Below, piece after piece: positions 6,751 through 22,472 of a DNA stretch of 64,000 bases. Position 1 is the first letter of the stretch, and the number at the start of each line of letters is the position of its first letter. Source of the DNA: Methanomassiliicoccales archaeon LGM-DZ1. Lineage in GTDB: Archaea > Thermoplasmatota > Thermoplasmata > Methanomassiliicoccales > Methanomethylophilaceae. Position numbers and translations under genes: made by a program. Location: contig CP115556.1 in NCBI GenBank assembly GCA_030168595.1, positions 806,001 to 870,000 on the forward strand, written 5' to 3'. A model generated the notes under the pieces. That model saw nothing but the letters and a program-made list of their open reading frames with translations, was not told the origin of the DNA and made no database searches.

Positions 6751-7269
6751 ATGAACGGAAGCGCCGCCGAGGAAGCGATCTGCCTGGCGTTCAGAAGGCT
6801 TCTGGCGGAGATTCCCTACGATAAGGTCACAGTCTCGGCGATAGCCGAGGCCAGCGGCCTCTCCCGCCAGACTTTCTACTATCATTTCGGGAGCGTGTTC
6901 GGGATCGTCCGCCGGCTCTGCATCGGGCAGGGCAGCCAAGATTGGAGGGAGGATATCGCCGGGGCGTTCAGGGCCGCCTCCGAATAGAGGGACGTAGTGT
7001 CCGCCGTCGCCCGCTCGTCGGCCTCTTGGGAGCTTGTCCGCGCCTTCAGGGAGATCGGCATGAGGGCCGGGCGCGCGGCCGCCTACGAGGCCGGCCCCGG
7101 ATACAGGAACCCGATGCTAGCGATTATCTGCGGGCGGGTCTTCGAGGGGACGATATCGTATTGGATCCTCCGGGGGATGGATGAGGATGCGGACACCGTC
7201 GCCGGCGAATGCATATGGGCGATAGAGGTCCTGGCAGGGAACTTCGCGGACCGCAGGCGCGGAGATTAA
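6751..7269 (+). CDS. TetR-family regulator with an in-frame TAG (codon 79)
   Basis: Residues 1-78 form a TetR DNA-binding domain: VSAIAEASGLSRQTFYYHFGS is the classic helix-turn-helix. TAG stands at 6985-6987, and the same frame then runs open for 93 codons with coherent helical sequence (WELVRAFREIGMRAGRAAAY, GTISYWILRGM) ending in TAA. The 172-residue total is normal for TetR; the first half alone would lack the ligand/dimer domain. TAG is not used as a stop by any other gene I read here. I infer readthrough, possibly as pyrrolysine; a plain nonsense mutation is the alternative. Confidence 0.7.
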
Positions 7270-18310: not shown

Positions 18311-18679
18311 ATGGCAGACTATAACGGAAACGCGCCGTCATACAACACTCCTCTCTCTCCCACCGGATATATCTGGACCACTCCAGAGGAGCAGCAGGCG
18401 GGCATCGACAGCAAGCTCAAGGTGGCCGCGCGCAGGTACCTCTGCCCCAAGTGCGGGAAGGAGTTCAGCCTTTTCCAGTCCAGGGCCGTGGCCTGCAAGT
18501 ACTGCCCCAAGGCATCCACCAGATGCCCCAACGTCAGGTGCCCCTACTGCGATTCGGAATTCCCCATCAGCGGCTTCGTGGTGCCCGGAGGAGAGAACTC
18601 CCGCAGGGACCAGCGGATCATGAATGATTACACCGATGAGGTCTTCAACCGCTGGGCAGAGACCTATAACAGGCGCTGA
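18311..18679 (+). CDS. Zinc-ribbon protein of unknown function
   Basis: A 122-residue protein. The first 45 residues are polar and probably flexible. Three Cys-rich knuckles follow: CPKCGKEF, CKYCPKASTRCPNVRC and PYCDSEF, enough for two zinc sites. I cannot assign a function. It begins right after the GGGP synthase stop and ends before a symmetric hairpin at 18723. Confidence 0.7.
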   Translation: MADYNGNAPSYNTPLSPTGYIWTTPEEQQAGIDSKLKVAARRYLCPKCGKEFSLFQSRAVACKYCPKASTRCPNVRCPYCDSEFPISGFVVPGGENSRRDQRIMNDYTDEVFNRWAETYNRR

Positions 18680-18722
18680 TGCCGACGGCATTGTACCGAG
18701 CGGCAGTTCATAACAGAAGAAT

Positions 18723-18740
18723 GGGGGATTTCTGTCCCCC
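18723..18740. terminator. Bidirectional terminator-like hairpin
   Basis: GGGGGA (18723-18728) pairs with TCCCCC (18735-18740) around a six-base loop. It sits between the converging zinc-ribbon gene and the PPC gene, so it can end both transcripts. Confidence 0.5.
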
Positions 18741-18766
18741 GATTATTTGAAAGCCAGTTCAGCGGT

Positions 18767-19228
18767 TCAGTCGGCGATGTCCCGGTCCCCGCCGTTCTCC
18801 CTTATGACGAGGGTCCTGACCCCGCAGACCGGATCGTATTCCCTCACAAGCCCGCCGCCCAGAAGCTCCTGGATGACGACCTCCATGGTGAGGGAAACGG
18901 TCACGCATTCGCGGAAGCATCCGGTGACGGAGATACCGTTGTGACCGACGGAGCCGTGCATATGGATGACCGGTTCCCCGGTGATGTCCTGCGGCACAAG
19001 GGTGCCGACCCCGTGGAACTCATCATCGGCATCTGTCTGGTAGACCCTCGGTTCCATGTGGCCGCCGACATCATGGATTCCCACGACGAACTAGGAACCG
19101 GCCTTGACTGCGCCTTCCATCTGGAAATATGCGCACTCGATGCCGTGCTCCTTCGCGAAGGCCTCGACGGTCTGCTTGACCAGCTCGCCGTCCTCCAGCC
19201 TCAGCACGAAGGTGCGTCCCAATTTCAT
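18767..19228 (-). CDS. PPC/DUF296-domain DNA-binding protein with an in-frame TAG (codon 46)
   Basis: Read from the ATG at 19228, the frame gives a complete 153-residue PPC domain interrupted only by TAG at 19093-19091. Before it: MKLGRTFVLRLEDGELV, then CAYFQMEGAVKAGS. After it: FVVGIHDVGGH, GVGTLVPQ, then EPVIHMHGSVGH and TMEVVIQELLGG, the normal PPC order with its His motif. Neither half makes a domain alone. The TAG falls at a variable position before the conserved FVVG strand. I infer amber readthrough, possibly pyrrolysine. It lies 20 bases after the YRSDR protein gene on the same strand. Confidence 0.8.
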
Positions 19229-19248
19229 CTCGCGGTACTTAATATCCC

Positions 19249-20361
19249 TCACCTGTACATGCTGTAGCGGTCGAGCAGCCTGTTGATGCTGACCGATTCG
19301 TCTTTGGTAAGATTACCGGCTTCCACGAAGGTCTGAACATAGTCCTTCGCATCGCGGGTGGAGATACGGGATGCCTTGGCGATGACGGTCGCCAGGAACG
19401 ATGATGCCATGGTCGGGTCCATAGACGACTGGGAAAGGACCTCGTTCATGTCGTATTTGAAAGGCGCCAGGCGGTGTGTGTTGAGCATCGGCTGCCTGGA
19501 GGAGGTCCTCCCTCCCCTGGATCCGGATCCGCTTCCCCTGCGGTTCTGCCTGTTGGGCGAGCGGGACGGAGCTTTCTGGGCGGACCCTTTGTAGGAGCGG
19601 GTGTAGTTGGCATCGTTCCTCTTGGGGATCTTGATGCCCCTTACCCCTGCCGGCGCATCGTCGGTATCGTCGTGGGAATCGGAAACGAGCCCCTCGCGGG
19701 CATCGCCGGAATCCTCGCCCTCGAAACGCCTGCGCTGAGCGGGCGCATCGCCCTGCTGAGGCCTGAAACCGCGCTGGGACTGTTCGGAGGAGCCTCCCGT
19801 GGAAGGCGCCCTGTCGGAGCGGTATCCCGAAGACTGGCCCTGAGACGGCCTGTCGGAACGGTATCCCCCCTGGGGGCGGTCGGAATGATAGCCTCCTGAG
19901 GAACCCCTGTCGGAGCGGTAGCCGCCGGATGACTGTCCCTGGGACCCGCGGTCCGAGCGGTAGCCGCCCGAGGAAGGCGCCCTGTCGGAACGGTATCCTC
20001 CGGAGGAGCCCCTGTCGGAGCGGTAGCCGCCGGATGATTGGCCCTGAGACGGCCTGTCGGAGCGGTATCCCCCCTGGGGGCGGTCGGAATGATAGCCTCC
20101 TGAGGAACCCCTGTCGGAGCGGTATCCTCCTGACGATTGGCTCCTGTCGGAGCGGTATCCCGAAGACTGGCCCTGAGACGGCCTGTCGGAGCGGTATCCT
20201 CCCTGGGACCCGCGGTCCGAGCGGTATCCCTGGCGGTCCCCGCCCTGGTAGCTGCGATGTGAATCCGGGCTGCGTCCGGAAGGCTGAGCACTGCTCCCGC
20301 TGTAGGGCGGCTTGGCGTCCTTCCTCACGGGCCTGCTCGGGCTGTCTTCGTTATTCTCCAA
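19249..20361 (-). CDS. Low-complexity protein with about 13 YRSDR repeats
   Basis: A 370-residue protein. Residues about 35-190 repeat G-G-Y-R-S-D-R (twice with H for R) separated by Gly/Ser/Gln linkers, 13 copies by my count. A basic Ser/Arg stretch with a GSGSRGGRTSSRQ run follows, then a folded-looking tail of about 85 residues (APFKYDMNEVLSQ to LLDRYSMYR). The repeat resembles RGG/YG-rich RNA-binding disordered proteins of eukaryotes. I do not know a named family. The repeat is visible in DNA as near-identical blocks, so its length may vary between strains. The PPC gene follows. Confidence 0.7.
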   Translation of the reverse strand: MENNEDSPSRPVRKDAKPPYSGSSAQPSGRSPDSHRSYQGGDRQGYRSDRGSQGGYRSDRPSQGQSSGYRSDRSQSSGGYRSDRGSSGGYHSDRPQGGYRSDRPSQGQSSGGYRSDRGSSGGYRSDRAPSSGGYRSDRGSQGQSSGGYRSDRGSSGGYHSDRPQGGYRSDRPSQGQSSGYRSDRAPSTGGSSEQSQRGFRPQQGDAPAQRRRFEGEDSGDAREGLVSDSHDDTDDAPAGVRGIKIPKRNDANYTRSYKGSAQKAPSRSPNRQNRRGSGSGSRGGRTSSRQPMLNTHRLAPFKYDMNEVLSQSSMDPTMASSFLATVIAKASRISTRDAKDYVQTFVEAGNLTKDESVSINRLLDRYSMYR

Positions 20362-20481
20362 TTTTATAACTCCGGGGTTTCTGAAGCAACCTAGTATAAA
20401 GAATCTTTCTATAAAACTTAGTAGAAAGCACCTCTCGTCACCAAGTTGTATTTTAATACCGTGCCCGGATACATTCGCCCG

Positions 20482-21678
20482 ATGGCAGAAGATGATGGGG
20501 AACGGCCCGCCGAAACGGCCGCAGGCCGCGAGATTTCGCTATTCATGAAGGCCCGCTCGGGATGCATCATACTCCTGGCGATCTCCGTTGTATGCGCTGC
20601 AATATCGGCGGCCATCGGAGAATACAAGGCGCTGTATCTCTCGGTCCCCTCGGGCGCTATCGCTGCGGTCTCACTCCGCCGGAGCGGCGGATTCTACATG
20701 CCCATGGCCATAGACGCCATACTTGCCGCGGTCCTTGTCATGCAGATGGGCGCCCGCTGGACGTTCAAGTATAACGGCGGGATGTGGTGGCTGGACCCCG
20801 TATCGGACTTCGTCATGGGCATGTTCCTGTGCCTGATAGGCATTATCCTGGTGTACATCCTCGTCAGGCGCATGCCGGGCCTGGACCGCGAGAACGGGAT
20901 CATCAGCGCCACCGCGTTCAGTTTCGGGTTCTCGATGTCGACGCTCATAATCCTCTGCTCCTTCGTCACCTCATCCTTCGTCGAGGGCCACTTCTCCGGG
21001 AGCCAGGGATTCGCCTCCGCCGGGGAGATGACCTCCGCGATCATCGGGGCGGGGGCCATGAGCATACTGTTCTACCTGAACAGGAACAGCCTCCTGTTCC
21101 AGAACACCGTCGAAGCGTTCCTCCGCGGCAATGCGGACGCCATCGGCATCGATGAGCTTGAGAAAGACAACATCCTCCGCAGGATATCCGGAGGGGAGAC
21201 CTCGGTTACCGAGTTCAAATCCACTATCAGGACGAACCTGCACACCGGAGAGAAGGACCCCAGGATGGAGAAGGCCGTCCTGAAGACCATAGTCGCTTTC
21301 CTCAACTCCCGCGGCGGCACGCTGCTCATCGGGGTCTCGGACGACGGTACGATCATAGGCGTGGACGAGAAGTCCTTCGAAAGCAGGGACAAGATGATGC
21401 TGCATCTGAACAACCTCATAAAGAGCCAGATCGGCAGCCAATACCTTCCGTACATCTCGTACAAGGCCGTCGATTTCGACAGCGGGACGGTCATCAGGGT
21501 CGACTGCCGGCCGAGCGACTCGCCCTGCTTCCTCATCGAAGGCAAGACGGAGACGTTCTACGTCAGGTCGGGCCCCAGCAGCATCGATCTGCACGGGAAC
21601 GACCTGCTCTCCTATGCCAACCACAACTTCGATAAGCAGCTTAGGAAGATGTACAAGCCGAAGGTGCGATATCGATGA
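20482..21678 (+). CDS. Membrane protein with C-terminal AlbA_2 (Schlafen-like) domain
   Basis: About 398 residues. Roughly six hydrophobic segments lie between residues 20 and 205. The C-terminal half is an AlbA_2 domain: ISGGETSVTEFKST, AFLNSRGGTLLIGVSDDG, ending with YVRSGPSSIDL. AlbA_2 domains are usually soluble and bind nucleic acid or ATP, so the membrane fusion is unusual. ATG 20482 is about 25 bases after the TATA-like TATTTTAATA. It overlaps larE by four bases. No role is known. Confidence 0.72.
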   Translation: MAEDDGERPAETAAGREISLFMKARSGCIILLAISVVCAAISAAIGEYKALYLSVPSGAIAAVSLRRSGGFYMPMAIDAILAAVLVMQMGARWTFKYNGGMWWLDPVSDFVMGMFLCLIGIILVYILVRRMPGLDRENGIISATAFSFGFSMSTLIILCSFVTSSFVEGHFSGSQGFASAGEMTSAIIGAGAMSILFYLNRNSLLFQNTVEAFLRGNADAIGIDELEKDNILRRISGGETSVTEFKSTIRTNLHTGEKDPRMEKAVLKTIVAFLNSRGGTLLIGVSDDGTIIGVDEKSFESRDKMMLHLNNLIKSQIGSQYLPYISYKAVDFDSGTVIRVDCRPSDSPCFLIEGKTETFYVRSGPSSIDLHGNDLLSYANHNFDKQLRKMYKPKVRYR

Positions 21679-22472
21679 GCATTCCAGGAGCATCGGCCGA
21701 TCCGGACGCAGCGGTCCCGGAGAGCCTCCGCAGGTTCCTCGCAGAGCACCCGCGGCCGGCGATCGCGTTCTCAGGGGGCGCCGACTCCTCATACCTGCTC
21801 TACGCTGCGGCATCCTGCGGGGCGGACGCGAAAGCGTACTTCGTGAAATCGGCGTTCGTGCCGGAGTTCGAGAAGGGCGACGCAGTGAGGACGGCAAAGG
21901 AGCTCGGCGTTCCCCTGGAGATCATCAGCGCCGATGTCCTGGCCGATCCCGCCCTGAGGGCTAATCCGGCCGACCGCTGCTACATCTGCAAGAAGAAGGT
22001 TTTCGGTGCCGTACGGGAAAGGGCCGATAGGGACGGCAGAGCGTTCCTGATGGATGCCACGAACGCATCCGACGACCCGAACGGAAGGCCCGGGATGAGG
22101 GCCCTGCCGGAGCTGGGGATACTCTCCCCCCTGAGGGAATGCGGCCTGACCAAGCCGGAGATCAGGAGGCTCTCGCACGAAGCGGGGCTTTGGACCTGGA
22201 ACCTGCCCTCCTACTCCTGCCTGGCCACCAGGGTTCCGGAGGGCATGCTCCTGACGGAGGATATCCTTGCCAAGACCGAACGCGCGGAGAACGGGGCGCG
22301 CGCCCTGGGATTCTCCGACATAAGGATAAGGGCCCGCCCGGACGGGACGGCGCTGGCGGAGATCACCGAGGAGCAGCAGGACCTCCTGGAGCGCGTGCGC
22401 CCAGAATTCGAGTCGCTCATCCTGAGACATTATAGCGGGATAGAGTACGGTATCAGGAGGCCGCATCTTTGA
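21675..22472 (+). CDS. larE: Sulfur transferase LarE (nickel-pincer cofactor synthesis)
   Basis: A 265-residue PP-loop enzyme that thiolates the pyridinium dicarboxylate precursor of the nickel-pincer nucleotide. The PP-loop SGGADSSYLLYA is at about residues 33-44. CYICKKKVF is the family Cys segment, MDATNASDD is conserved, and SYSCLATRVPEG carries the Cys that is sacrificial in known LarE. It overlaps both the AlbA_2 gene and larB, so it is part of a tight operon. Confidence 0.9.
   Translation: MSIPGASADPDAAVPESLRRFLAEHPRPAIAFSGGADSSYLLYAAASCGADAKAYFVKSAFVPEFEKGDAVRTAKELGVPLEIISADVLADPALRANPADRCYICKKKVFGAVRERADRDGRAFLMDATNASDDPNGRPGMRALPELGILSPLRECGLTKPEIRRLSHEAGLWTWNLPSYSCLATRVPEGMLLTEDILAKTERAENGARALGFSDIRIRARPDGTALAEITEEQQDLLERVRPEFESLILRHYSGIEYGIRRPHL

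Follow-up and report, generated by a model that had tools for sequence, protein, structure and literature searches.

The window, a stretch of 64,000 nucleotides from the genome of Methanomassiliicoccales archaeon LGM-DZ1, a methane producer of the gut type, carries on its minus strand a gene of the PPC/DUF296 family (PF03479; positions 18767-19228) with a single internal TAG (19091-19093). Counting from the ATG at 19228, this TAG, read as 19093-19091, is codon 46, and the frame is otherwise open on both sides of it, through to the TGA at 18767-18769. The codon stands in the protein context GAVKAGS-TAG-FVVG, where a reading made from the letters alone (the sequence-only reading) had placed it; the frame and the profile match confirm that placement. 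The PF03479 match crosses the TAG, covers profile positions 1-115 of 117 and scores 60.3 bits, above the curated cut-off of 25, which makes the gene a member of the family; the piece downstream of the TAG scores 32.6 bits by itself. According to a whole-genome profile search, this is the sole PPC gene of the single-contig genome of 1,768,094 bases, with one internal stop, and among the PPC matches in 111 genomes (its own and those of relatives) the window gene alone has an internal stop.

By sequence, the same domain is found in the archaeal PPC/DUF296 entries 2dt4 (PH0802) and 2h6l of the PDB. Neither of the two chains has a stop or a special residue within its matched sequence, whereas the window gene has the TAG. 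An AlphaFold model of the protein, built from an input of only two sequences (the window protein and that of its closest relative), reached a pLDDT of 33, too low for use. In plant AHL proteins, DNA binding is attributed to the AT-hook, and no AT-hook was seen in the sequence of the PPC protein. "DNA-binding" is a family label that receives no support from the present analyses and is therefore dropped; the product should better be called a PPC-domain protein of unknown function.

Alignment of the PPC homologues shows which residues replace the TAG. Among 32 aligned relatives, the column contains R in 14, T in 6, K in 4, S in 2 and V in 2, with C, E, I and A once each. What replaces the TAG thus varies among polar, basic and small residues. 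The column is flanked by a nearly invariant G-S before and a hydrophobic residue after, and the homologues align across the region without a break. The position thus appears to be tolerant, with Arg and Lys common. Such a column suggests that pyrrolysine could be accommodated here without loss of the fold, and it argues against a catalytic role.

The closest relative found was Ca. Methanomethylophilus sp. 1R26 (NZ_LOPS01000035.1; Methanomassiliicoccales, Methanomethylophilaceae). In this relative, the identical codon of the PPC gene is TAG, and the reading frame is conserved; all other aligned relatives have a sense codon at this position. Between the window gene and that of 1R26, dS is 0.46 and dN 0.042 before the TAG (dN/dS 0.09), and dS is 0.45 and dN 0.074 after it (dN/dS 0.17). 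The excess of synonymous over nonsynonymous differences after the TAG is significant (Fisher p = 8e-8), third positions account for 29 of the 43 downstream nucleotide differences, and the alignment contains no indels or further stops after the TAG. Nonsynonymous change is nominally higher downstream (0.074 vs 0.042), partly in the C-terminal tail, but the difference between the two halves is not significant (p = 0.35); many of the downstream amino-acid differences fall within the last ten residues, outside the PPC domain. Purifying selection thus persists downstream of the TAG. Relaxed selection in this part, named beforehand as an outcome that would speak against read-through, was not observed.

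The genome encodes the machinery for pyrrolysine. PylS was identified at G000:C1:1703933 (268 bits in a profile search) and is present in 1R26 as well. PylD was also found, as was PylB, which lies about 0.73 Mb away on the circular map, an arrangement like the one described for Ca. Methanomethylophilus alvus. Directly upstream of pylS, a tRNA-Pyl-like gene with the anticodon loop CTCTAAA (CUA anticodon) was located at L063:6724; it was missed by ARAGORN and recovered through the anticodon-loop motif. The mtmB gene of the genome carries its classic single TAG.

Stop-codon usage was determined in a 483-kb sample of the genome (G+C 60%, 367 gene calls). TAG ends 9 of the 367 gene calls, with TAA at 41 and TGA at 317, and at least 4 of the 9 TAG-ended calls, mtmB among them, continue beyond the TAG in an open, coding-like frame. 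Of the sampled genes, at most about 1-2.5% end in TAG. A further in-frame TAG (L075:5930) was identified in tiaS (L075:5726-7066; G000:C1 near 1115729-1116199), as codon 69 of the read-through protein, within the first domain of TiaS. This gene is single-copy, and its product, the tRNA(Ile2) agmatidine synthetase, is needed for AUA decoding in archaea. It was present in all 58 high-quality genomes searched, with no other stop among the matches listed. The tiaS TAG is common to 1R26, and another genus member (G012) has AAG (Lys) there. Any genome that depends on TiaS would have to read this TAG; tiaS is the strongest internal control. Judging from the gene sequence, the decoding of one codon, AUA, appears to depend on the supply of pyrrolysine.

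Additional candidates were observed in the window and elsewhere. A gene for a TetR-type regulator (window 6751-7269, plus strand) contains an in-frame TAG at 6985-6987 that is also found in 1R26 (98% identity), where the TetR match is split into two frames near residue 32-36. A match to a family-2 glycosyltransferase at L074:17635-18369 spans a TAG and may resemble the GT2 protein in the M. alvus list (PMC4153887). A TAG flanked on either side by coding-like sequence was also seen at L065:15478-17187, L077:9035-10513, L082:10403-11977 and L064:12235-13380.

The PPC gene therefore combines what is expected of a gene that specifies pyrrolysine by TAG: a genome with PylS, PylD, PylB and a tRNA-Pyl-like gene, homology and frame that continue across the TAG, and a relative, 1R26, in which both the TAG and the selection are found. 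On this basis, we consider it very probable that a full-length PPC protein is made by decoding UAG as pyrrolysine, the TAG having been acquired at a tolerant site before the split from 1R26. The claim that the protein would make no sense unless the TAG is read through is thus supported by the domain match, the TAG in 1R26 and the downstream selection. Given the Pyl machinery, the rarity of TAG terminators and the tiaS TAG common to 1R26, the codon is most likely read through as pyrrolysine; we infer both the identity of the residue and efficient read-through from sequence. In the proposed course of events, a sense codon at the tolerant position would have changed to TAG before this lineage and 1R26 parted. 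With pyrrolysyl-tRNA(CUA) made by the genome's own Pyl system, the ribosome would decode UAG and continue to the TGA, giving a single full-length protein. Pyrrolysine would then stand in for the variable Arg/Lys/Thr/Ser residue, where it is probably tolerated and not catalytic and would presumably serve no dedicated function. No special mRNA signal seems to be needed: TAG, nearly unused as a terminator, would behave as a rare sense codon, and in a genome with such low use of TAG stops a read-through signal is not expected. The RNA after the TAG folds no differently from shuffled sequences (z = 0.0 and +0.2 in the window, +1.5 and +1.0 in 1R26), and so no PYLIS-like element is claimed.

Several other explanations of the TAG were weighed against read-through as pyrrolysine. 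A sequencing or assembly error can be dismissed with near certainty, as the independently sequenced 1R26 has the TAG too, amid many synonymous differences, and nothing was found in favour of an error. That the TAG recently broke the gene and left a pseudogene would agree with the sense codon in all other aligned relatives and with a PF03479 score somewhat below those of other genus members; the retention of the TAG in 1R26 at dS 0.45, the downstream dN/dS of 0.17 and the intact frame largely refute it, and we regard it as highly improbable. About equally improbable is that translation stops at the TAG and restarts at the GTG at 19084 (19082-19084, minus strand), giving the protein in two pieces. 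In prokaryotes, coupled restart close to a stop does occur, and this GTG lies three codons past the TAG and is present in 1R26 as well. However, no Shine-Dalgarno-like motif was found within 25 nt upstream of it, and in TAG-free homologues, which make one uninterrupted protein, it aligns with an ordinary Val or similar residue. The split would also cut the conserved GS-x-[FLM]V stretch, leaving upstream a 45-residue piece that corresponds to no known domain and downstream only the second half of the PPC domain. The restart, which the sequence-only reading had named as a possible refutation, is thus unsupported.

Two further possibilities take read-through for granted, and each is given a small chance. 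UAG could be read by another tRNA or a near-cognate, or read-through could be kept partial on purpose, with a role for the truncated form too. The evidence for read-through in general would fit either version, but with a dedicated tRNA-Pyl (CUA) and PylS present no other decoder is needed, and the RNA fold after the TAG is not unusual. It is likewise unlikely that pyrrolysine at the PPC site is purposeful, whether full-length synthesis, by depending on the supply of pyrrolysyl-tRNA, senses methylamine or pyrrolysine status or the long side chain alters binding by the PPC protein. If such a purpose were real, the conserved TAG of tiaS would extend the dependence on pyrrolysine to AUA decoding.

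Read-through as pyrrolysine at the PPC gene can be compared with known systems. The methylamine methyltransferases MtmB, MtbB and MttB share with it the codon and the decoding machinery. In these enzymes, pyrrolysine has a catalytic role and is conserved throughout the family. The PPC gene lacks such family-wide conservation: its column is variable among the aligned relatives, and only two close genomes have the TAG. Some archaea reportedly (2025) read every TAG as pyrrolysine. The present genome is similar in that TAG is rare as a terminator and occurs in housekeeping genes. A possible difference is that some gene calls of the 483-kb sample still end in TAG. A literature search on a code of this kind found no direct report in the collection searched.

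Within the same archaeal order, 16 predicted pyrrolysine proteins besides the methylamine methyltransferases are listed for Ca. M. alvus (Borrel 2014, PMC4153887, Table 7). TAG makes up 1.6% of its stops (PMC4153887), a low usage to which that seen here is similar, and the in-frame amber codon in such genomes was proposed to be a stable mutation (PMC4153887). For ISO4-H5, the genome report counts in-frame amber codons in 46 genes, those for adenylate kinase and cas3 among them (PMC5011839). These genomes and the present one have in common in-frame TAG codons in conserved genes, a Pyl system and TAG-free homologues elsewhere. Neither the PPC protein nor TiaS is named in the M. alvus table or in the accessible part of the ISO4-H5 report (PMC5011839), and a literature search combining PPC or TiaS with pyrrolysine found no direct report in the collection searched. 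That the PPC gene lies outside methylamine metabolism, as noted at the outset, stands; it is less surprising than was supposed, given that pyrrolysine outside methylamine metabolism had already been predicted in this order. The mechanism is known in this archaeal group, to which PPC and TiaS are additions, and the novelty is modest. Beyond the predictions for M. alvus and ISO4-H5, as presented in the text available for the latter, the window case adds tests of sharing with a relative and of dN/dS. It thereby provides a well-supported pyrrolysine protein without a methylamine link, backed by conservation and a selection test in addition to homology. Taken with the TAG of tiaS, a universal gene, this case suggests that a supply of pyrrolysine has become necessary for ordinary housekeeping in this lineage, and also that gene callers treating TAG as a stop truncate such genes.

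The identity between the window genome and 1R26 was observed to be a mosaic: about 86% over a 3.9-kb stretch (window 18453-22315), 93% at pylS, and 98% in the surroundings of tiaS and of the TetR gene. This pattern suggests recombination. The PPC alleles, which lie in the 86% stretch, appear to be older than the tiaS and TetR regions, and both alleles carry the TAG. The TAG-bearing genomes are two in number, and their PPC regions may in part share recent history. The upstream neighbour (window 19249-20361, minus strand) codes for a protein of low complexity with many GYRSDR-type repeats; its repeat stretch is poorly alignable to 1R26 (60-80% identity, with gaps), and its C-terminal part is conserved.

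The start of the PPC gene may also differ from the ATG at 19228. The family's conserved start position is occupied by ATT in the window (19243) and by ATC in 1R26 (region 19241-19253, minus strand). Sequence comparison revealed a Shine-Dalgarno-like motif, GGTGA (19249-19253, minus strand), which overlaps the stop of the upstream gene and is conserved in many genus members. It lies 5 nt upstream of the ATT and 20 nt upstream of the ATG, and translation may start at this AUU/AUC codon instead of the ATG. Another upstream start, the GTG at 19252, is possible in the window; in 1R26, a TGA separates the upstream GTG from the gene.
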